From a virus, in IMG/VR virus record IMGVR_UViG_3300007345_003061, positions 1-20,712 of that record: a stretch of 20,712 nt of DNA. One strand, given 5' to 3'. Under the pieces are notes generated by a model. The model was not told the origin of the DNA and ran no database searches. It was given only the letters and a program-made list of their open reading frames with translations. Below, piece after piece: positions 5,457 to 20,712 of the stretch (positions are counted from its first letter, which is position 1; each line of letters begins with the position of its first letter). The position numbers and the translations under genes are program-made.

Positions 5457-6254
5457 ATGGCAATAGCATTAGTTGATGCTGATTCTATATACTTCAGGGC
5501 TGCTTACAGTAACCCTAGTAATATAGAGATCCGTAAGATTATTGATAGAACAATGAGGGAATGTATCTCCTACGCCTTCTCAGGGCCTCAGGAGTACCGT
5601 GTAGCCCTTAAGGGTAGGGGGAACTACCGGAAAGGTCTTTACCCCGACTACAAGGGCACCAGACCCCCATTACCGAACGATCTAAAAGAAGCCCTTAACT
5701 ATGGTCATGATTACATGAAAGAGAAATGGGGTGGTATTGAAGCTGACGGTATGGAAGCTGATGACCTTGTTTGTATCTGGGCATATGAAGCTAGAGAAAT
5801 GGAACTAGACTTTGTTGTTTGTGGTATCGATAAAGATCTTAAACAAATACCAGGTCATCATTACAATTACTCTAAGAAAACACATGAGTTTGTTGATGAT
5901 GACAAAGCAGAAATGAACTTAATGTTACAATGCCTAACAGGTGACACGAGTGATAACATCCCTGGGATCAATGGTATTGGACCAAAGAAAGCTGCTAAGA
6001 TACTTGAGGGAATTCCAGCAGGTCAACGATGGGCAGCTGTTGAAAAGGCTTGGAAGGAACACAATGCAGGTGACCCTTGGCTTAGTCGTAAACTACTTAC
6101 TATGTTGACAACATGGGAAGAACTAGAGGAAATGAGTAAGTATGTACAAGATGAGTCACTACTTCTCCCTGAAGCCACTGAGTGCAAACAAGATGTGGAA
6201 CCGGAGGGGGAAGACAACGTTCAAGTCAGCGGATTATCTACAGTATCAGAATGA
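5457..6254 (+). CDS. T7 gp6-like 5'-3' exonuclease (PIN/FEN superfamily)
   Basis: The 265-residue product has the metal-binding acids of the flap-nuclease family: D7 and D9 in ALVDADS, E100/D102/D103 in MEADDLV, D125 and D127 in GIDKDLK, and D163/D166 in TGDTSDNIPG. A helix-hairpin-helix (GINGIGPKKA, about 170-179) follows. The basic arch region GRGNYRKGLYPDYKGTRP (about 53-70) suits 5'-end recognition. In T7 the equivalent removes RNA primers, degrades host DNA and aids recombination. AAAGGA lies six bases before ATG 5457. The last 37 residues form an acidic, low-complexity tail that shares its DNA in another frame with the start of the next gene. Confidence 0.93.
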   Translation: MAIALVDADSIYFRAAYSNPSNIEIRKIIDRTMRECISYAFSGPQEYRVALKGRGNYRKGLYPDYKGTRPPLPNDLKEALNYGHDYMKEKWGGIEADGMEADDLVCIWAYEAREMELDFVVCGIDKDLKQIPGHHYNYSKKTHEFVDDDKAEMNLMLQCLTGDTSDNIPGINGIGPKKAAKILEGIPAGQRWAAVEKAWKEHNAGDPWLSRKLLTMLTTWEELEEMSKYVQDESLLLPEATECKQDVEPEGEDNVQVSGLSTVSE

Positions 6255-6567
6255 TATCCGTGATCAACTGATCGGAACTGACTGGCCCTTCGGGTCTGGT
6301 CAGGTATCCTTTAACATTATAGCAGGTCTATCTAATCGTGGAGCAGACCTAGATAATGTAATCAAACCAATACTAGATACATATCAAGGAGTGTATGAGG
6401 AATTCAATGACAATAAAGTTTACAACATCGAACTTGAAAAGCGAATCGTTAAACGAGGAGGAGAGTTCCTTGACATCAGAATACGAGAGTATGAAGGTGA
6501 TCAAGCAACAGAGACTCAACAAGAAACGAGAAGCGAGTTACAAGAGGAAACTAAATCGTCAAGCTAA
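6142..6567 (+). CDS. RusA-type Holliday-junction resolvase
   Basis: The 141-residue product has the RusA fold signature. The N-terminal YFSLKPLSANKMWNRRGKT matches the usual first strand and basic loop. The acidic active site is D69, D71, D90 with K75, in GADLDNVIKPILD and FNDNKV; spacing is identical to E. coli RusA D70/D72/K76/D91. RusA enzymes cut four-way junctions symmetrically, here presumably resolving recombination or replication intermediates before packaging, the job done in T7 by gp3. The first 113 bases lie inside the exonuclease gene. The start is at ATG 6142 (AGAGGA 11 bases upstream) or ATG 6151; both keep the domain. The C-terminal tail after residue 118 is a Glu/Gln/Ser-rich extension. 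Confidence 0.85.
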   Translation: MYKMSHYFSLKPLSANKMWNRRGKTTFKSADYLQYQNDIRDQLIGTDWPFGSGQVSFNIIAGLSNRGADLDNVIKPILDTYQGVYEEFNDNKVYNIELEKRIVKRGGEFLDIRIREYEGDQATETQQETRSELQEETKSSS

Positions 6568-6586: not shown

Positions 6587-8218
6587 ATGAATGAACGAAG
6601 ATATACTAAAGGACCCTGCCCATTCCCTGAATGTGGTAGCTCCGATGCATTCACAACATACACTGATGGAGTAGGTCACTGCTTCAGCTGTGGAAAATCA
6701 AAGAAAGTAAATACAAATATGGATAGTTATGAACCTACCACCTTTACTGAACTTACTAAGTTCTCCGATATCAGTTCTTATCGTAGCTACCCTGTTACTT
6801 CTCGTGGTATCTCTCAAGAAGTAATAGATCACTTCGGTATTAAAATGAGTGTAACAGATACAGGTATGCCTGAAGCACACTTTTATCCGTACACAAAACA
6901 TGGTATCACTGTCGCATACAAAGAACGCAAGCTACCAAAAGAGTTCAAGACTCATGGTGACTTCAAAGACTGTGAACTGTTTGGTCAGTCTTCTTGTGTT
7001 GCTGGTAAACACAGATTGGTTATCACTGAAGGCGAACTAGATGCCTGTGCGGTAGCCCAAAGTATGCTGAGTACCAGTAAGAAAATTTGGAATGTTGTGT
7101 CAATCCCATCAGCATCTAATCTAAAGGGTCTTCTAGAACAACGTGACTGGATTAACTCATTCAAAGAAATTGTACTGTGTTTTGATCAAGATGATGCAGG
7201 TCAGAAAGCACAAGATGCTGCAGCTAAAATGTTTAGTGCTGGTAAAGTAAAAGTTGCTAAGCTTCAAGAGAAAGACCCATGTGAAGTACTAATAAAGCAT
7301 GGACCAAAGTCTCTTAATGATGCTATCTTTACTGCTCAAGTCTGGTCACCTGCAGGTATTGTAACAGGTGAAGCAGTATGGGAACAATTCAAATCAAGAC
7401 AAAACGTAAAGTCTGTCCCATATCCTGATTGCATGAGTGGACTCAATGAAAAACTAAAAGGAATACGATATGGTGAGATTACTCTGTTTACCTCTGGCAC
7501 TGGTAGTGGTAAGTCTACTGTCATTAAAGAGATTGTTCTTGACCTTCTTGCTAAGACAAGTGATAAGGTTGGACTCATTAGTCTGGAAGAAAGTGTTGGA
7601 GATACAGCCGAAAAGTTTATCTCAATGCAACTTAAACGTAACATCATGGATCCTCCACCAACTAGTGAAGAGGAACTTAGACGCGGATACGAAGCTGTGT
7701 TCGGTGACGAGCGACTGGTTCTCTTGGATCACCAAGGCTCCGTTGGGGACTCATCTCTTATCGATAAGATCGAATACATGGCCCTTATGGGCTGCAAGTA
7801 CCTCGTTCTTGACCACATCACTATCGCGGTATCAGAAGGTTCTGAAGGACTATCTGGTAACGAAGCGGTAGATAAAGTAATGTCTGACCTATTGAAAGTT
7901 GTAAAGAAACACAATGTATGGTTGGGTCTCATCTCACACCTACGCAAAGCCCAAGGGGGTAAGAGTTTTGAAGAAGGGAACATCGCATCTATCGATGATA
8001 TCAAAGGCAGTGGTTCGATCAAGCAGATCTCGTTCGACATCATTGCCTTCTCAAGAAACCTTGTCGCAGAGTCAGAGTCAGAACGAAACACAATCAAGTT
8101 CAAAGTACTCAAGTCTAGATTCACCGGACTTACAGGACCTGCCGGAAGTTCTACGTACAACAATAAGACAACAAGACTAGTATCTTCAGGAGGATTTGAT
8201 GAATACTTCACAATTTGA
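6587..8218 (+). CDS. T7 gp4-like bifunctional primase-helicase
   Basis: A 543-residue protein in the T7 gp4 order. The N-terminal zinc-binding domain has C11, C16, C32 and C35 (CPFPEC, HCFSC) for primase template recognition. The TOPRIM domain has E149 in VITEGELDA and D200/D202 in CFDQDDAG. The C-terminal RecA-type helicase has Walker A SGTGSGKST (303-311), E334/E335 in SLEES, Walker B YLVLDH (405-410) and a GSGSIKQISFD segment (474-484) matching the DNA-contacting motif. The enzyme unwinds DNA as a ring and lays RNA primers for the polymerase. It is slightly shorter than T7 gp4 (566). It abuts the frame upstream and overlaps thyX by 20 bases. Confidence 0.96.
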   Translation: MNERRYTKGPCPFPECGSSDAFTTYTDGVGHCFSCGKSKKVNTNMDSYEPTTFTELTKFSDISSYRSYPVTSRGISQEVIDHFGIKMSVTDTGMPEAHFYPYTKHGITVAYKERKLPKEFKTHGDFKDCELFGQSSCVAGKHRLVITEGELDACAVAQSMLSTSKKIWNVVSIPSASNLKGLLEQRDWINSFKEIVLCFDQDDAGQKAQDAAAKMFSAGKVKVAKLQEKDPCEVLIKHGPKSLNDAIFTAQVWSPAGIVTGEAVWEQFKSRQNVKSVPYPDCMSGLNEKLKGIRYGEITLFTSGTGSGKSTVIKEIVLDLLAKTSDKVGLISLEESVGDTAEKFISMQLKRNIMDPPPTSEEELRRGYEAVFGDERLVLLDHQGSVGDSSLIDKIEYMALMGCKYLVLDHITIAVSEGSEGLSGNEAVDKVMSDLLKVVKKHNVWLGLISHLRKAQGGKSFEEGNIASIDDIKGSGSIKQISFDIIAFSRNLVAESESERNTIKFKVLKSRFTGLTGPAGSSTYNNKTTRLVSSGGFDEYFTI

Positions 8219-8840
8219 AGTAACACTGATTGATAGTATGGGGAGTGACCTAGCAGTAGTTAATGCTGCTAGAGTCTCCTTTAATAAACAACGATCAGAG
8301 TATACTGATGGAGATAAAAGATTAATCCAGTACCTTGCACAACATGGACACTGGACACCCTTTAGTCAAGTACAATATCAAGTACGTATTAAAGCCCCTA
8401 TCTTTGTAGCTCGACAATGGTTCAAACATATGGTTGGTATTACACGTAATGAAGTATCCCGAAGATATGTTGACAGTACACCAGAGTTCTACGAACCTAC
8501 CACGTGGAGAGCTAAACCAACAGATGGGGCTAAGCAAGGATCCAGTGGTGCTTCTGAGTCCCAGTACTTCCCTAGTAAATACCTAAGGGATATCCATGAA
8601 AACGCTATTGTGTGTTATGAAAAGATGTTAGCCCAGGGTGTATGCCCTGAGCAAGCACGTATGATTCTACCCCAATCAATGATGACTGAATGGGTAGAAA
8701 CAGGATCCCTAGCTGCTGCTGCACGTATCTATGCTCAACGTACAGATGCACATGCACAAGTAGAGATCCAAGATTTAGCCAAGATGTTTGGTGACTGTCT
8801 AGAAGATATCGCCCCCATCAGTTGGGGGTGCCTAACTTAA
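8199..8840 (+). CDS. thyX: Flavin-dependent thymidylate synthase (ThyX)
   Basis: The start at ATG 8199 is set by AGGAGG at 8188-8193; the TTG three bases upstream is disfavoured. The 213-residue product makes dTMP from dUMP using FAD and methylenetetrahydrofolate. ThyX features include GHWTPFSQVQYQVRIKAPIFVARQW (about 50-74), the signature segment ending TRNEVSRRY (82-90), and C-terminal RTDAHAQVEI. The usual signature RHRxxSxNExSxRY appears altered here: the RHR part reads KHM and one extra residue seems to precede NE, so the canonical first Ser is not obvious. It sits in the replication operon to supply thymidine. Overlaps the primase-helicase by 20 bases. Confidence 0.92.
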   Translation: MNTSQFEVTLIDSMGSDLAVVNAARVSFNKQRSEYTDGDKRLIQYLAQHGHWTPFSQVQYQVRIKAPIFVARQWFKHMVGITRNEVSRRYVDSTPEFYEPTTWRAKPTDGAKQGSSGASESQYFPSKYLRDIHENAIVCYEKMLAQGVCPEQARMILPQSMMTEWVETGSLAAAARIYAQRTDAHAQVEIQDLAKMFGDCLEDIAPISWGCLT

Positions 8841-8857
8841 AACAGAAAGAGGATTGT

Positions 8858-11176
8858 ATGAATCCATTCGATCAGATCTCAGAGTACCTGATAGATAAAG
8901 TCTCAAGGGTTAATCCAAATAACCCTAAGGCTAACTCAGGTGGTGTACTCTTGAGGTTATATAAAGAATACAAAGAAGATATGCCACGGCTAGTTGCTGT
9001 AGCATTTCAAACAATACAAATGAGATTCACCTACGATACCTCCGATAGTCCTGCAGGGACTGCACAGTTAACTGCTGTATCCACAGCAATAGGACAACGT
9101 GTAGCACGTGTAATAAAAAGAGAACCCCCTGGGTTACCCTGGAATATGCATGTAAGACTAGGTGATCTCTTCATTGAAGCTTTCTTTAACTGTGGATATA
9201 TTAACTTGTACTACCCCAAGACAAGGGATACTAGTTATATTGTATCAGCTACAGCTAAATGGATTGACCTAGCAGATATCCCTGAGGCACTATCAAGGAT
9301 CTCTTTGAATCACACAGTACTAGAAAGACCAGAAAGAATAACAAAGGTTACACAACCAGATGGTGAACCCCTAATCAAGAACTGGACAGAAGAGGACAAC
9401 GATGAGTTCCGTACAATGATAGGGCAACCTTGGATTAAAGCAGTGGATAATCTACAAAGGACAGGTTGGCGTATTAACCAACGTGTCTACGATGCTTTAA
9501 TGGACAACAAAGATTCTTTTGTTTCATCTGTACCCATCGAAGATAACGATGCTAAGGAAATGAAACGTAGAAGTAAGAATGTTGAGTGGGGTTTCATCAC
9601 TACGAAAGCCAAGCTTCTGTATGAACATGATGTGTTCTATCAATACATGCAAGCCGACTATCGTGGTAGGCTTTATTACTCAGAGTCTTTCTTAAACTAC
9701 CAGGGATCTGATCTTGCCAGGGGTATGATGTCTTTTGCCAGGGGTAAACCTATGACAGAAGATGGTCTCTTCTGGTTAGCTGTGCACACAGCAAGTAGTT
9801 TTAATCAAAGCTACAACATTGATGAGCTACCTGAGTGGTGTGAGGGTGAATACCAAAAGTACCTACAAGAAGAAGGCTTAGAGTCTATCAGTGTAGATAA
9901 GTTTACACTAGAGGATAGAGTGCGCTGGACTAATGACAACATGAATATCCTAATTGAAATGGGTAGAGAATCTATCATTGCTGATATTGCAGAGAAACCA
10001 GTATCGTTTCTTGCTTGCTGCTTTGAATGGTACGACTATCAAAAGGCAGTCAAAGATAATAGAATCTACATAAGCCACCTTCCAGTGCCCGTAGACGGGT
10101 CTAACAATGGTTGGCAGCATCTAGGTGCTATTTCTAAAGACAGCCACACAGGGAGGCTTGTAGGCCTTGTACCAGTAGATATACAATATGACTTCTATGT
10201 TCAGACTGCGAAGCAATTGTATAACCTTGTCACTGATGATCGTCTTAAAGGTATCTTAGATAAGATGCCAATGAAACACATCAGAAAAGGTATATCTAAA
10301 CGTGGGAGTATGACAAGAGCATACTCTGCAGGTGCTAGGAAGATTGCTGAAAATATGTTCTTTGATTGTAAGACAGAAGACTTCCATCTTACTTATGGTA
10401 TAACACAAGATGACTGTGATAAGTTATCTAAGTTACTAATCAAAGCAATCAACATGGTATGCCCAGGTCCTTTACACACTATGGCATTCTTACAAAAGAT
10501 TGCACAGTATGAGATCGGTGAGTACAAAAAGTTCTGTCCCAATGGAGATGTTGCTGGACCTGAATACAAGCAACTAGTCAAGGATCAGAAAGAACTATAT
10601 ACTAAGAAAGATAAAACAGATGAAGAGATTGAAGAGTTAAACAATCTAACTGTCGAGTTAAAATCTTTCAAGAGTAAGCTCATCTATGGTAACGGTAGAG
10701 ATAAACTTACATGGGTAACACCTTCAGGGTTTAAAGTAACCTATGAAAACTTTACAACAGCTACACGTAAATGTAGAGGTACCATAAGTGGATACAAGAC
10801 TGACTCTAAGGGACACAAAGGAGTAAACCATGTGGCAAGAGTACCTACGAAGACCCCAGATATTCGCGGATTTATGTGCGGTGTCAGCCCTAACTACATT
10901 CACAGTCAAGATGCAAGCCACATGGCATTGGTTATTGAGGACTGGAATGGTGACTTCGGAGCAGTGCATGATTCCTTTAGTACTCATGCATGTGATGTCG
11001 AAGAGTTACTAACAAAGACAAAGAAAACATTTATCGATATGTACGATAAAAGAAATTACTATGACTTAATTCAAGACAACATCATCACTGATGCTACTAA
11101 CCTTGACGTTGAGCAACCACAACTAGGTGATCTAGATGTAACACAGATCTATGAGTCTGATTACTTCTTTGCCTAA
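8858..11176 (+). CDS. T7-like single-subunit DNA-directed RNA polymerase
   Basis: The start at ATG 8858 (MNPFDQIS) is chosen for AGAGGA about 6 bases upstream; the longer frame from 8822 begins inside thyX. The 772-residue product has DYRGR (D267, R271), motif A VDGSNNGWQH (D413), motif B KRGSMTRAYS (K481, Y489) and motif C VHDSF (H704, D705), preceded by IHSQDASHMA. It ends in ESDYFFA, mirroring the T7 C-terminal foot ESDFAFA. It is shorter than T7 RNAP (883), mostly in the N-terminal promoter-binding part. It should transcribe middle/late genes from phage-specific promoters. Its position after the replication genes, rather than before them as in T7, recalls phiKMV-type order. Confidence 0.96.
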   Translation: MNPFDQISEYLIDKVSRVNPNNPKANSGGVLLRLYKEYKEDMPRLVAVAFQTIQMRFTYDTSDSPAGTAQLTAVSTAIGQRVARVIKREPPGLPWNMHVRLGDLFIEAFFNCGYINLYYPKTRDTSYIVSATAKWIDLADIPEALSRISLNHTVLERPERITKVTQPDGEPLIKNWTEEDNDEFRTMIGQPWIKAVDNLQRTGWRINQRVYDALMDNKDSFVSSVPIEDNDAKEMKRRSKNVEWGFITTKAKLLYEHDVFYQYMQADYRGRLYYSESFLNYQGSDLARGMMSFARGKPMTEDGLFWLAVHTASSFNQSYNIDELPEWCEGEYQKYLQEEGLESISVDKFTLEDRVRWTNDNMNILIEMGRESIIADIAEKPVSFLACCFEWYDYQKAVKDNRIYISHLPVPVDGSNNGWQHLGAISKDSHTGRLVGLVPVDIQYDFYVQTAKQLYNLVTDDRLKGILDKMPMKHIRKGISKRGSMTRAYSAGARKIAENMFFDCKTEDFHLTYGITQDDCDKLSKLLIKAINMVCPGPLHTMAFLQKIAQYEIGEYKKFCPNGDVAGPEYKQLVKDQKELYTKKDKTDEEIEELNNLTVELKSFKSKLIYGNGRDKLTWVTPSGFKVTYENFTTATRKCRGTISGYKTDSKGHKGVNHVARVPTKTPDIRGFMCGVSPNYIHSQDASHMALVIEDWNGDFGAVHDSFSTHACDVEELLTKTKKTFIDMYDKRNYYDLIQDNIITDATNLDVEQPQLGDLDVTQIYESDYFFA

Positions 11177-14962: not shown

Positions 14963-17900
14963 TTATTCTCCTTTAAAATTCCATGAGTCTGGTGCAAAGT
15001 CTCCAATTCTTGAGAATCCACCAGTGACACCAACGGCAGGTATTAACCTACTACCTTCTTGTGCACCACCAGCAAAGTCCCCTGTTGCTACCTTACCAAC
15101 TGCTCTACCAATACGTTTTAATGTACCAGTAGCAGGTGCTTCACCTGTTGTTGTATTCCACAACCACTCTCCAGCATTACCAGAACGTTGTTCGTATATG
15201 GGGAAGAACTGATCAAGCACACGCTCACCAACACCAAGTAGACCTGATGAACGGATACCACGTTGGATATACTCTTCAGTCTCTAGGTGAGGGTTCTTAC
15301 CTGTCTTGTATTCGTCTTCATCCAAACCGCCATACTTAATGAGGTCCTTTAGATACTGAGAGGCAAAGCCCATCATAATCATAGTAGCCATGATAGCAAA
15401 TGCATTGTACTTCATTGCTGGAGTACCACGTTTTACATACTCACCCCACAGTTTAGGGATATGGTTTGCTGTAAATGTAGCAATGAATCCCTGGAACTGT
15501 GTAAACAAAAAGAACCTTGGGTCTTGATAGATCAATGGTCTGTTAGCTACCCCTGGGAGTGCTATAGCATCATCGATAAAGTTCATAGATCCAATTCTTA
15601 TATTGTCATTCATAAGTTTATCATCAGCTTCTATTTCTTGATTTGTTCTGTTATCAATACCAGTGGCATCTCTTTTTCTTGATTCGATAAACAACGTAAC
15701 CATGTCATCAACATTGATACCAATATTCCTTAAAGCTTCTTCTGACTGTTGAACCTCATTGGTTTTTACTTCACCGCTTGTTCTTTGATCAACAACAATA
15801 TTTACATGATCAAAAATATAATCAGCAGATATAGCTGCTCTCATAGAACGAGTCATGTTAGTAAAACCAGTAAGACCAGTAGCCTTGAAGAAGATTTCAT
15901 AGAACCTTTGATGTGATGGATTCATTTCTGAAACACCAGTCACTGTAGCTGCACCAAGTTCCCACGCATCATAACCTAGTTCTCTGCGTAAAGCTTGACC
16001 CCTAGATCTACTAGCAAAAGGAACACCTGTAGTTGGGTCAATGTTTCCTAACGCTTGTTCTCTACGTGTTATAACAGAGCCTGTTTGTTTTACAGCAGCA
16101 CCTAAAGCAGAAGCCAGTTCTTTACCAAAGTTCTGTAAGCTTGTATCATTTGAAGATGAACCTTTTCTTTTAAAGATCTGTTCAGCTGTTAAAGCACGAG
16201 AGGACAGTGCAAGTTCTGGAAGAGATGACACAGCAGCCATACCTAGTGTTCCAATAGTTGTAAGGAACATAAGGTTTTTCTGGATACCAATAAGCATTTT
16301 ACCCATGTCTGATGTCGGACGTTTGTAGTTCCCTGACTCAGCGTTTAGATAGTCTTTCATAAGCTTAGCTATACGATTAACTTCTGCAGCGGGAACACCC
16401 TCTGCTTGCATCTTATCTAAAAGGAAAGCAATCTTCTCACCATTCTTACCAATATAATCTCTATGTGCTGTAAATCTAGCAGCAGACTTAATAGAGTGCT
16501 GAATGTTCTTATAGATATCTTGTTCCATAAAGTCTTTAAACACAAGATTACCATCAGCATCCATCTTATCAGACATGCCAAGGGTATTACTTCTGTGTGA
16601 CCCAGGAACGATACCACCTTTAGTAACATCAAAACCTTTTACAAATTCAATACCTGCAACAGCACCAGCTTCATCAATGTCAGTAATAGTATCAGAGTTA
16701 AGTATCTCATCTACTAAAACCTTAGCATCTCCTGGACTAATTTGCGGATATGTCTGTACTAGTAAAGCCTCAAATGCATTACGGTTCTTTTGAACAGCAA
16801 CCTTATTTAAAGTTTTGTATCTATGTAAATAGTTTTTACGTTGACCAAGATCACCACCTGCTGCTATCTGATCATTATACATAGCATCTGCTGTCATGTT
16901 CATTTGTTTAGCAAGTGTATCAATTGCAGCCGCTTGTTGTGGGTTAAGTCCAGCAGTGTTTAAAAGATTAGAATCGTAATTCCCATCACTATCTACTGCT
17001 GCTTGTAGTCTTTTATAAATATCATCACTAAGAGTATCTATTTCTTTTTGACTTAAAACTTTTCCATTACCCATAACATTCCAAAAGTCATCAGGATTCT
17101 GTAACATATTTCTGTATATAGAAACACGATTACGTTTAGCCATTTCAAAATCAGCACCACTGAATACCTTTTGAAGTCCACCACCAAACTGTGCAGCTAA
17201 CTCTCTAGCTGAAGCAGATACTCTTTTTACTTCAGCAGGTATAATATAATCAATAGACCTTCTCCAAAGTGCAGGAGCCGAGGCAAACATTTCACCAATG
17301 GTTTCCCCAAGAGTTCTTTCAGATTTTGTTTTACGATGGGCTTCTGTTCGATCATCTAAATCTACAGGTTTATAATTAGAGTCAGCTTCTTTACGTTCAG
17401 CTAGTTCTTTATTACGTTCCTGTTGTTTTTCTTCAATAGACTTAACACGACTACCAGCTATACGGGCTTGCTCTGCAAACTCTTCAACTTGAATCATGTT
17501 TACAGTTTGACCTGCATCTAATTGTCGTTGTGTTTCTGCAGCCTTAGCTTCTTGATAAGCAATTTCACCATTAGCTTTACGCTCTGCTTCAGCCTGTGCT
17601 CCCTCTTCAGAAAGACGTTTGGCTTCTGCAGGTAACTGACGTACTGCTACATCAGCCCAAGCACCAGCATTAACTGCGGCCCCAGGAACTGCAAAGGCTG
17701 TACCTAAAGAAGTACCAGCTATTGAAGCAGCAATCATCCGATCAGTAAGTTCATTGTAATCAAAGACCTTATCAGAACCAAGGGTTGCTCCAAGGTAAGC
17801 AGTAGCTTCTTGCATAGCTTCAGTTGCACCTTCACCAGTGCCACCAATTAACCCACGTGTTGCAAGGTCTTTGAAAATAGCCTTACCTGTGATCTGTTGA

Positions 17901-19270
17901 CGAGCTACCTTAGCTGCATCTCCAGCAAACCCTGCGAGTTCCTTACGTGTTGCTGTAAGAAGTAATCTTTGAGCATCTCCTAGGTCCATACCTCTAGATG
18001 TTAACGCAGTTAAAGCATCCTTATACATAGCTTTAGGTGTAATGCCTTGTTTAAATATAAGATTAATACCAATCTTATCTAATGCAGCTTGAAGAACACC
18101 TGCACCAATTGCAACAGTAGCACTTTTATTATCACCCTCCATCTCTGACCATGTGTTACCAGTATATAAAGACACTGGTGCTAAGTAACTCAATCCCCCA
18201 GTTACTGGTGCAAGTAAAGCAGCACCACCAGATGCAGCCATATAGGGTAAAGACATTGCAGCATTGGTTCCTAAGAACTCAACGGCTGTCAGGAATCCAT
18301 CCACATCCTTGTAGTCTGTAATGATTTTACCGTTCTCACCCATACGGGTACGAGCACGTTCCATTCCTGCTTCACCAAAGTTTTCTGCAGCTTCCCAATC
18401 TATTTTTTCTCCAAGCATATCTGCAAGAGCATAAGCAGATTGAGCTACACTGTTCCATCCGGTTTCCCAAGCAACAGTCATAGGGTTGTTTGCACGACCA
18501 GTTACATCATCTCTATCGAAATAATCAATGTCGGGTTTAGCACTTTCATTAATAGCAGCCCTTTGTTTTTTAAGCATCTGGAGTCCTACAAGGTCTTGGT
18601 CTGTAGGTTGTTCTCCGCTTTTCCGCATTTCAGATAGTCCATCTTCAACCATCTTGATCTGCTCATCAAGCATACCAATCTCACCAGAAAACTTCTGTGC
18701 TCTTTTAAACTGTTGAGCAAACCTACGCTCTTCATCAACCCCTTCTTGTATCATCATCCGAGCTTTGTCAAACTCATTTGGTTGATATTCAGCAGAGGTT
18801 TGATCTGCTCTAGGTCCTTTTAGAAAATCTTGATAAGTTCTAGAACTACGTAGTATATTTCCTGGGTCAAAACCACTAGCAATATCTACGACACCATTGA
18901 TAGCAAGCTCACGAGAAAAAGATTTACCAGTTTCTGGATGAACAAGATCACCCATTTGACGACTCCCAGTGGCATCCATTTCTGGAGTACCATCTGGGTT
19001 AAATCGTCTACGTACTTCTGTATAACCAAGTTGATTAGCTAAAGATTGTACTTGTTCAGCTGTTTGCACAGCCCCAACTTCTTGTGAAGCACTTAAACCT
19101 TGCCATTCTTTGTACGTTTCAGGAGCATCTATACCACCGAAACGTACATCTAGATCGTTGCCTTCTTCACGGATAGTGTCTGCGTCTAAGAATGTAGTTT
19201 TATTCTTTGCACCCACTAGTTGGTTTGCATCACCACTAAGGATGTTAGCATAATCCGATACATCAAGCAT
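14963..19270 (-). CDS. Giant internal virion/ejection protein with N-terminal staphylococcal-nuclease-like domain
   Basis: The 1435-residue product starts at ATG 19270, with AAGGAG seven bases upstream. Residues about 24-130 look like a TNase domain: LDADT (D29, D31, T32), VRFGGIDAPE (R43, D48, E51), GSRQMGDLV (R104) and SRELAINGVV (E121), matching SNase D21, R35, D40, E43, R87 in order, with R43-E51 spacing identical. A charged helical region follows. Hydrophobic or Gly/Ala-rich segments near 335-375, 380-405, 512-537, 997-1020 and 1288-1308, and a GEGATEAMQE motif near 477, suggest membrane insertion, as for T7 gp15/gp16 that form the ejection channel. Residues about 545-640 are coiled coil. 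It sits between two other large virion-type genes. The T7 gp16 counterpart bears a transglycosylase; here the enzymatic cap appears to be a nuclease. Structural role by analogy. Confidence 0.75.
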   Translation of the reverse strand: MLDVSDYANILSGDANQLVGAKNKTTFLDADTIREEGNDLDVRFGGIDAPETYKEWQGLSASQEVGAVQTAEQVQSLANQLGYTEVRRRFNPDGTPEMDATGSRQMGDLVHPETGKSFSRELAINGVVDIASGFDPGNILRSSRTYQDFLKGPRADQTSAEYQPNEFDKARMMIQEGVDEERRFAQQFKRAQKFSGEIGMLDEQIKMVEDGLSEMRKSGEQPTDQDLVGLQMLKKQRAAINESAKPDIDYFDRDDVTGRANNPMTVAWETGWNSVAQSAYALADMLGEKIDWEAAENFGEAGMERARTRMGENGKIITDYKDVDGFLTAVEFLGTNAAMSLPYMAASGGAALLAPVTGGLSYLAPVSLYTGNTWSEMEGDNKSATVAIGAGVLQAALDKIGINLIFKQGITPKAMYKDALTALTSRGMDLGDAQRLLLTATRKELAGFAGDAAKVARQQITGKAIFKDLATRGLIGGTGEGATEAMQEATAYLGATLGSDKVFDYNELTDRMIAASIAGTSLGTAFAVPGAAVNAGAWADVAVRQLPAEAKRLSEEGAQAEAERKANGEIAYQEAKAAETQRQLDAGQTVNMIQVEEFAEQARIAGSRVKSIEEKQQERNKELAERKEADSNYKPVDLDDRTEAHRKTKSERTLGETIGEMFASAPALWRRSIDYIIPAEVKRVSASARELAAQFGGGLQKVFSGADFEMAKRNRVSIYRNMLQNPDDFWNVMGNGKVLSQKEIDTLSDDIYKRLQAAVDSDGNYDSNLLNTAGLNPQQAAAIDTLAKQMNMTADAMYNDQIAAGGDLGQRKNYLHRYKTLNKVAVQKNRNAFEALLVQTYPQISPGDAKVLVDEILNSDTITDIDEAGAVAGIEFVKGFDVTKGGIVPGSHRSNTLGMSDKMDADGNLVFKDFMEQDIYKNIQHSIKSAARFTAHRDYIGKNGEKIAFLLDKMQAEGVPAAEVNRIAKLMKDYLNAESGNYKRPTSDMGKMLIGIQKNLMFLTTIGTLGMAAVSSLPELALSSRALTAEQIFKRKGSSSNDTSLQNFGKELASALGAAVKQTGSVITRREQALGNIDPTTGVPFASRSRGQALRRELGYDAWELGAATVTGVSEMNPSHQRFYEIFFKATGLTGFTNMTRSMRAAISADYIFDHVNIVVDQRTSGEVKTNEVQQSEEALRNIGINVDDMVTLFIESRKRDATGIDNRTNQEIEADDKLMNDNIRIGSMNFIDDAIALPGVANRPLIYQDPRFFLFTQFQGFIATFTANHIPKLWGEYVKRGTPAMKYNAFAIMATMIMMGFASQYLKDLIKYGGLDEDEYKTGKNPHLETEEYIQRGIRSSGLLGVGERVLDQFFPIYEQRSGNAGEWLWNTTTGEAPATGTLKRIGRAVGKVATGDFAGGAQEGSRLIPAVGVTGGFSRIGDFAPDSWNFKGE

Positions 19271-19281
19271 AGCAATACTCC

Positions 19282-20712
19282 TTATTGTTTAGGTTTGTTA
19301 AGTTCAGCATGTAATGCCTGGGCTGTGTCCATCATGTACTTATAAAAGCCAGATTCACCAGCACTCTTTTCAGCACTGTCATTATATTTCTTTCTTAAAG
19401 TACGACCATCTTCAGTGGAATCTAACTTGTTCCATTTTTGAATAGCAATATTTATAATATCTCCACGATCAGTACTAGAGTTTGGAATACCTGAGATAAC
19501 AGTATCAAGGTTTTGATAAAGCAAACTCATTTTATCTGCTTGTACATATTTTGGAGTTGCCTTTTTGTTCATTACAGCATCTTCATTAATGATAAACAAC
19601 TCTGGAGCACCTGTGGTTTCTCTTAGCTGTTGATCTTCTAAAAACCTAGTAAAGTCATTAGGTGTATACTTAATGTCTTTACCTGCAGCTTCTGCAACCA
19701 TAGTTTCATATGCTTGAGTCATAACCTTACGACCAGCTGTAGAGTCTGGGTCAACCCCTTGCTTTTTGGCCCAATCATAATACGCTAATGCTGCTTCCTT
19801 AGGGCCAACACTAACAATGTACTCTTTATCTTTACCTTCACCTTTAAAGTTTCCAGGTTTATCTCTAATTTCTGAGAAGTAACCTTCCATGTCACCAAGG
19901 ATTCTACTACGTCTTTGCTTATAAGCTTCAGTATTAGCATCAAGTTCTTCACGATAATCATTAAGACTTGAAACCTGTGCAGGATGCATTACAGCACCAC
20001 TACGTGATTGGTAATGTGTGCCACCTGTAATACTATTCTTTACAGGAACTAAAGTTGCTTTCTTATAACCTGTAACTTGACCCTCTTTATTAAACTGAGG
20101 AACCATTTTAGTTATAGGGGCACCACCAGTTGGTGCATAAGTAGCACCTTTCTTTTCAAGGTCTGATATGTTTTTAGTTTTGTTATATAAGGCAATAGAT
20201 TTTGGCGTGTATGTTCCATCCTTTGTTAACTCTTGAACATACTTTTTATGTGCAGAAACTTTAGAGTCAACACGTTTAACATATTGTTTAGCAGCAAAGT
20301 TAAGAGAACCACTGTGAGAACCACCTAACATACGACCACCAACATACATAATAGCCATGCGTTTAAGCTCATCAGAATCAAACAAGTCACCAAAGATACC
20401 TGATAAGAAAGACTCTGCTTTGTTTATCTGTTCTGGTGGTGCTGTTTTACCTGCATCAGCTGCATCTTTTGGTTTTGTGCCTGGAGGAATAGTACCATCA
20501 TCTTTAGTTTTCTTAACAATATCTTCAGCAGTTTTTGTACTAGTAGAAGAATCTTTAGGAGGTACACCTTCAATAGTAGGTACAGCTGGATCTAATGCTT
20601 CAGTCTGATCATCCTTAACAAGCTCTTGGCTTTTACCTTCTAATCTTTTCTTTTTATCTTTAAGATCATCAGCATCTTTCTGAACCTTCTCAGCTTCTTT
20701 AGTTAATCCAAG
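19282..20712 (-). CDS. Large virion-type protein, N-terminus beyond the window
   Basis: The frame is open from the right edge to TAA at 19284-19282, giving 476 visible residues. A TTG at 20385 could be mistaken for a start, but 109 further in-frame codons with the same composition precede it and no start lies within the window, so the gene is partial. From the N-terminal side: a highly charged helix (KEAEKVQKDADDLKDKKKR), a Pro/Thr/Lys/Asp-rich linker of about 65 residues, ESFLSGIFGD, then a Gly-containing helix (MAIMYVGGRMLGG), and a mixed-charge C-terminal half ending in a helix. Downstream spacing to the nuclease-domain protein is 11 bases. Probably an internal core or tail-associated protein; no family recognised. 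Confidence 0.7.
   Translation of the reverse strand, partial: LGLTKEAEKVQKDADDLKDKKKRLEGKSQELVKDDQTEALDPAVPTIEGVPPKDSSTSTKTAEDIVKKTKDDGTIPPGTKPKDAADAGKTAPPEQINKAESFLSGIFGDLFDSDELKRMAIMYVGGRMLGGSHSGSLNFAAKQYVKRVDSKVSAHKKYVQELTKDGTYTPKSIALYNKTKNISDLEKKGATYAPTGGAPITKMVPQFNKEGQVTGYKKATLVPVKNSITGGTHYQSRSGAVMHPAQVSSLNDYREELDANTEAYKQRRSRILGDMEGYFSEIRDKPGNFKGEGKDKEYIVSVGPKEAALAYYDWAKKQGVDPDSTAGRKVMTQAYETMVAEAAGKDIKYTPNDFTRFLEDQQLRETTGAPELFIINEDAVMNKKATPKYVQADKMSLLYQNLDTVISGIPNSSTDRGDIINIAIQKWNKLDSTEDGRTLRKKYNDSAEKSAGESGFYKYMMDTAQALHAELNKPKQ

Follow-up and report, generated by a model that had tools for sequence, protein, structure and literature searches.

Which enzymes can a phage bring into its host on the proteins that it ejects? 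Wall hydrolases are familiar from ejection proteins, and N4-type phages add an RNA polymerase. A 20.7-kb IMG/VR virus record, analysed over its whole length of 20,712 nucleotides and called the window here, raises the question of whether a nuclease belongs on this list, as the N terminus of one of its giant late proteins had been read in an earlier note as a domain like staphylococcal nuclease (SNase), an enzyme that cuts both DNA and RNA. The features under discussion are collected in Table 1, and residue numbers are those of the 1435-aa protein.

Table 1. Features of the SNase-bearing gene and its neighbours, in window coordinates.
Feature	Position	Strand	Basis or remark
SNase-like OB-fold domain, residues 21-141	18848..19210	-	family profile, model, Foldseek, VIA-align
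D29-A30-D31, equivalents of SNase D19 and D21 (Ca2+ ligand)	19178..19186	-	D29 and D31 invariant in 22 sequences
R43, D48, E51, equivalents of SNase R35, D40, E43	19118..19144	-	invariant in 22 sequences
R104, equivalent of SNase R87	18959..18961	-	invariant in 22 sequences
ORF of SNase-bearing probable ejection (internal virion) protein	14963..19270	-	1435 aa, no cysteine
AAGGAG ribosome binding site	19278..19283	-	7 nt before ATG, read directly
Central glycine/alanine-rich hydrophobic segment, residues 317-540	17651..18322	-	blastp all-against-all, hydropathy
C-terminal module, about residues 1095-1360	15191..15988	-	common to CRP-7, phiA008, KPP25, UFV-P2, CRP-810; phrog_6958 virion structural protein
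Upstream ejection protein, C-terminal 476 aa, truncated by contig end	19282..20712	-	full-length relatives carry lysozyme domain
Downstream T7-superfamily RNA-polymerase-like protein, 1154-1180 aa	11491..14955	-	motifs A/B/C across 13 loci; phrog_414 E 7e-4

An SNase fold at the N terminus

Taken by itself, the window sequence is too diverged to prove an SNase domain. The protein has no SNase match in Pfam even at E<=10, SNase is absent from NCBIfam and PHROG scans of it, a PDB search with a profile of the window and two relatives at ~88% identity fails to bring up SNase, and an AlphaFold model made from the window sequence alone is poor (pLDDT 47). With every threshold failed, an SNase claim from this sequence alone would stay a guess, and it is the relatives, through their shared profile and a model, that confirm the domain. 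A tblastn search with the whole protein brings up two isolates, Roseobacter phage CRP-7 (gp34, 26% identity) and Aeromonas phage phiA008 (gene 66, 24% identity), both matched via the C-terminal module only. The N termini of these two proteins are also SNase domains (DGDT...VRFGFGDAGET...DPYGRQ in CRP-7 and DGDT...FRLYGIDTEEM...DAYGRK in phiA008) with the five catalytic residues in place, and that of phiA008, at the same position as the window domain, scores above the Pfam SNase cut-off (E 8e-7, 29.9 vs 21 bits). Pattern scans cannot follow the C-terminal module, which has diverged too far, so the T7-like RNA polymerase (RNAP) was taken as the anchor for finding further relatives, a strategy that worked. 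This anchor was used to fetch 80 IMG/VR loci, in which the ejection protein was located by HMM, and the domain is present in all distinct homologues with an intact N terminus beside the T7-like RNAP. Loose SNase patterns searched against IMG/VR confirmed one known locus among the matches listed, phiA008 as the IMG/VR query found nothing, and tblastn of the phiA008 SNase domain against phages returned only phiA008 itself and one unannotated record. The viruses bearing the domain are mostly marine and infect bacteria.

The fold assignment comes from an alignment of 22 homologous N termini from IMG/VR, most of them 15-30% identical to the domain in the window. As a profile, from which phiA008 and the CRP-7 isolate were left out, this alignment finds staphylococcal nuclease in the PDB at E 6.6e-8, with all 60 matches listed being that protein, and with phiA008 added the value is 9e-9. 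PF00565 at E<=1 matches 4 of the 22 family members, the best at 1.8e-5. AlphaFold2 supplied with the alignment gives a model of moderate confidence (pLDDT 69, pTM 0.63) whose elements run strand-strand-strand-helix-strand-strand-helix, the order found in SNase. An SNase fold match was one of the checks named in the earlier note, and in addition to the family profile it is provided by Foldseek, where SNase fills all of the best 50 rows against the PDB (best E 9e-4). VIA-align places model residues 21-141 on SNase 11-127 (Z 8.6-9.0, ~109 residues, rmsd 3.6); this range and the conserved spacing are compatible with the five side chains clustering in a single site. The best match among viral models is a 1368-aa protein, the same length as CRP-7 gp34. 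Other very long viral proteins also match the model (BFVD A7KUR9_2, A0A7R7G2A4_1 and A0A516LXN0_1) and are possibly further virion proteins with an SNase domain.

The predicted active site can be followed residue by residue. Motifs LDADT, VRFGGIDAPE, an arginine and RELAINGVV had been singled out from the letters, and D29-A-D31-T32, R43, D48, E51 and R104 are indeed read there. The five catalytic residues are complete in the window protein, D31/R43/D48/E51/R104 corresponding to SNase D21/R35/D40/E43/R87, and D29 and T32 (SNase D19 and T22) flank the catalytic D31. The spacing from R43 to D48 (5) and to E51 (8) is the same as in SNase, as had been claimed. Identity of spacing is only partial, because the D31-to-R43 gap is 12 vs 14 and the E51-to-R104 gap, with an insertion, is 53 vs 44. 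Invariant columns across the 22 sequences are, in full, M1, D29, D31, T32, R43, D48, E51, R104 and G115, and the chance of five residues named beforehand all falling among 8 invariant columns of 125 is ~2e-7. The pattern DxDT-x(7,17)-R-x(4,5)-D-x2-E occurs in 24 of the 1940 distinct ORFs of all fetched loci, always at the N terminus of the SNase protein; derived from the family itself, it shows specificity rather than independent discovery. Profile, model and structure comparison together confirm the N-terminal ~21-141 of the 1435-aa protein as an SNase-type OB fold with an intact predicted active site, which is where the earlier note had placed it (18877-19203, minus strand).

The parent protein and its neighbours

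The start of the 1435-aa ORF is sound, because a ribosome binding site precedes its ATG at close range; the stop codon of the upstream gene overlaps this site. Homologues of the ORF are found in all related loci where the region is intact. On its plus strand the window encodes a canonical T7-like RNAP (8822-11176), a primase-helicase, DNA polymerase A and a 5'-3' exonuclease, with the large late genes on the minus strand. The early region also holds, by Pfam, the nucleotide and recombination genes MazG (2158-2493), DUF3310 (2483-2746), a RusA-like resolvase (6142-6567) and ThyX (8196-8840). The SNase protein is the middle one of three successive giant proteins of the late operon (lysozyme-bearing, SNase and RNA-polymerase-like), each with 0-1 cysteines. 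Across the loci examined, the genes run T7-like RNAP (convergent), a 1.2-1.5-kaa RNA-polymerase-like protein, the SNase protein and a further large ejection protein, an order that is kept where the neighbour genes are intact, also in CRP-7.

Homology and gene order both support the earlier proposal of an internal virion protein, and the 1435-aa product is probably an ejection protein. Its C-terminal module matches phrog_6958, a virion structural protein, at E 1e-15 and recurs in the LUZ24-like phages UFV-P2, NV1, SCYZ1 and BroderSalsa as well as in KPP25, where the proteins are annotated as virion structural or particle proteins; those of UFV-P2, NV1 and KPP25 were matched by the phiA008 homologue and the shared profile. 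The LUZ24-like and KPP25 homologues have no SNase domain, so the nuclease appears to be an add-on to a conserved ejection/virion protein. While phiA008 has an SNase ejection protein, its nearest relatives by the C-terminal module (KPP25 and LUZ24-like; loci L006-L011) do not, and the domain may have been gained or lost across phage groups, as a comparison of phiA008 (L005:6751-12903) with L006-L011 would suggest. The segment 317-540 is common to the phiA008 and LUZ24-like homologues in an all-against-all blastp and is a possible membrane-active part. Searched by sequence against the PDB, the rest of the SNase protein matched nothing, T7 gp16 included, so homology to gp16 is unproven. The SNase proteins contain 3 cysteines in 33,817 residues. 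Near-absence of cysteine suits proteins that unfold and refold, but CRP-7 structural proteins are generally cysteine-poor, and this depletion was rejected as proof of ejection for being non-specific. A small CTP-synthase-like match (E 0.002, below the cut-off) covers residues 1136-1191, within the phrog_6958 module, and was regarded as a chance hit. In the middle of the protein, HExxH metallopeptidase-like motifs (HELGH, HESMH) occur in phiA008 gene 66 (L005:6751-12903) and in KPP25 (L007), thus in SNase-bearing and SNase-less homologues, and are reminiscent of polyvalent proteins; Pfam peptidase matches on phiA008 are sub-threshold only.

The neighbouring genes encode a further ejection protein upstream and a putatively ejected one downstream. 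In relatives, a phage lysozyme domain is recognised in the upstream protein (E 4e-32); the CRP-7 version has a pesticin-like lysozyme domain instead. A Hint/intein-like autoprocessing domain lies within a large product of the virion cluster encoded two genes upstream of the SNase protein (L003:2909-4747, with PT-HINT at E 1e-10, and L001:2806-4641). In the downstream RNA-polymerase-like protein, the motif A Asp, the motif B R..K..YG and the motif C Asp align in 13 loci, with the R and K of motif B at 12 and 8 residues before Tyr-Gly, as in T7 R627/K631/Y639; in motif C, YD replaces HD in the window copy. A PDB sequence search with this neighbour gave no match, so the call rests on the motifs and a weak match to phrog_414 (E 7e-4). 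The protein may be a virion RNAP of the ejected kind that does not belong to the N4 family. Some copies (L001:12331-16431, L003:12244-16170 and L039:3773-7930) carry a NADAR-like insert between motifs B and C (PF08719, with E 1.8e-5 in L001, short of the gathering cut-off; phrog_1017 in L001 and L039); the window copy lacks it.

A proposed role at entry and its alternatives

With its site intact, the SNase-type domain is likely to be a working Ca2+-dependent, sequence-nonspecific nuclease delivered by the virion. Judging by homology and synteny, the SNase protein would be made late, from the lysozyme-ejection/SNase-ejection/RNA-polymerase-like gene order, and stored in the head. On adsorption it would leave unfolded via the narrow portal/tail channel and refold in the envelope, for which a small cysteine-free OB fold would be well suited. 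By analogy with T7 gp15/gp16, the neighbouring lysozyme protein would open the wall, and the SNase protein, with its hydrophobic middle and its C-terminal module, would help build a trans-envelope conduit. SNase needs Ca2+ in the millimolar range, and the bacterial cytoplasm has far too little. In T7, the N-terminal domain of gp16 is periplasmic and the C-terminal domain reaches the cytoplasm (PMC8954989). Placed like the gp16 transglycosylase, the SNase domain would lie on the periplasmic side, where millimolar seawater Ca2+ would switch it on while DNA already in the cytoplasm would stay protected. Periplasmic placement by the gp16 analogy and the Ca2+ supply thus favour an envelope-activated nuclease, one that would cut nucleic acid at the entry site. 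As its target, host nucleic acids are tentatively ranked first, at somewhat below an even chance; the DNA of phages that compete or arrive later, together with environmental DNA in the periplasm, comes second and is the less likely choice, followed by other targets. Were the nuclease active, survival of the packaged genome beside it in Ca2+-rich seawater would be a puzzle, which is counted against this best explanation: inside a head filled with DNA and surrounded by seawater, a Ca2+-dependent nuclease has to stay silent until ejection. The wider picture, which we offer with less confidence than the choice of host nucleic acids as target, is of a three-enzyme ejection kit in widespread, largely marine phages. 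A lysozyme would attack the wall, the conduit protein would carry an SNase triggered by Ca2+, and a second RNAP of the T7 superfamily would complete the set; within the first seconds of infection, and ahead of any phage gene expression, the nuclease in the envelope would destroy nucleic acid of the host or of rivals.

Alternatively, the N terminus could cross the inner membrane first and degrade the host chromosome and/or RNA at once, providing shut-off and a nucleotide supply. This would resemble the packaged restriction enzymes of chlorovirus PBCV-1, which, it is believed, break down host DNA in a matter of minutes (PMC7019647), and it would be in keeping with the intact catalytic residues and with the RNA-polymerase-like neighbour, which, if ejected, would act in the cytoplasm. 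We nevertheless find a cytoplasmic site of action unlikely, given that the incoming phage genome would be exposed and that SNase needs Ca2+ far above the level of the bacterial cytoplasm. The periplasmic N-domain of T7 gp16 (PMC8954989) also speaks against it. Slightly less probable again is a nuclease ejected into the periplasm against competitors, with the DNA of superinfecting phages, extracellular DNA or carrier DNA as its substrate. A nonspecific nuclease in a Ca2+-rich compartment would suit this purpose, and an action on rivals has been proposed for injected DNases of the ParB type in polyvalent proteins (PMC5512222); for PBCV-1, however, an exclusion role was proposed and degradation of host chromatin is now favoured (PMC7019647). 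Processing of the phage's own DNA, by trimming the portal-held end or cutting concatemers during packaging, would fit a protein made late and, presumably, held near the genome end in the head. It is improbable, as SNase is nonspecific, ends are normally made by terminase, and the LUZ24-like homologues without the domain show that it is not needed for the conserved role.

A relic, an option that the earlier note had left standing, or a purely structural OB fold without catalysis could be imagined from the distance of the domain to SNase and from the window copy having no Pfam match. Selection argues against it. When the window is compared with each of its two closest relatives, residues 15-135 show a dN/dS of 0.11 and 0.12, the low end for the SNase protein; the same two pairs give 0.21 and 0.19 for the whole protein, and these comparisons indicate that the domain is under purifying selection. 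Distances within the domain also track those in the remaining sequence (Spearman 0.45, Mantel p 0.001), as expected if the domain is inherited with the protein, and the catalytic residues stay invariant while the remainder of the domain diverges. With a dN/dS of ~0.11 and such strict conservation, a relic is disfavoured and very improbable. That the domain is no SNase at all and its motif a product of chance, as the weak single-sequence scores might suggest, is hardly credible and already contradicted by the family profile, the fold and the orthologous, Pfam-positive domain of phiA008.

Comparison with known systems

Like SNase/thermonuclease (PF00565), the domain has the OB-fold order of elements, the five catalytic residues with the D19/T22 equivalents, and the R-D and R-E spacing. 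SNase is a small secreted enzyme, whereas here the fold forms the leading domain of a phage protein of ~1400 aa, with 16-19% identity in structural alignments, a loop insertion before the R87 equivalent and scores mostly below Pfam detection. The comparison with T7 drawn in the earlier note is apt as an analogy. Like gp16, the window protein is a giant late and probably internal protein with an N-terminal enzymatic domain, but where gp16 has a lytic transglycosylase the N terminus here is an SNase fold, sequence homology was not detected, and the wall hydrolase is found on the adjacent upstream ejection gene. Polyvalent proteins, the packaged enzymes of phage heads (Iyer et al. 2017), are likewise multidomain, with an enzymatic domain predicted to be injected; their DNases predicted to be injected by phages are ParB-like, however, and SNase is absent from the main text of that paper (PMC5512222).

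Closer relatives can be found among cultured phages. The proteins of CRP-7 (gp34) and phiA008 (gene 66) share both the N-terminal SNase domain and the C-terminal module with the window protein, and both were deposited as hypothetical proteins with the nuclease unannotated; the description of CRP-7 does not mention a nuclease in gp34 (PMC6918029). These two proteins now gain a function prediction, and as CRP-7 is a cultured Roseobacter phage that carries the domain, the question is testable now. The virion proteins of KPP25 and the LUZ24-like phages (UFV-P2, NV1, SCYZ1 and BroderSalsa) have the same C-terminal module, the LUZ24-like ones also the central part, but, unlike the window protein, no N-terminal SNase domain. 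An active domain would mean that the virion itself supplies a nuclease, one that the virus may bring along at the moment of entry and that would act ahead of phage gene expression.

A precedent exists in Bacillus. The BtI1 prophage homologue of gp147, the baseplate-hub protein of Bacillus phage 0305phi8-36, has an SNase-related N-terminal domain where the phage homologue has a transglycosylase, and the purpose of this domain was 'not obvious' to its authors (PMC2147016). As in the window protein, itself a predicted virion protein, an N-terminal SNase-related domain takes the place of a transglycosylase. BtI1, though, is a single Bacillus prophage case on a myovirus baseplate hub, whereas the domain described here is on a probable podovirus-type ejection protein and conserved in a large family. 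Within open-licence papers, a conserved nuclease at the gp16-like N terminus of an ejection protein is without a literature description except for this 2007 remark on a hub protein, although other reports may exist. What is new is the family-wide, podovirus-type case, set beside one hub-protein precedent.
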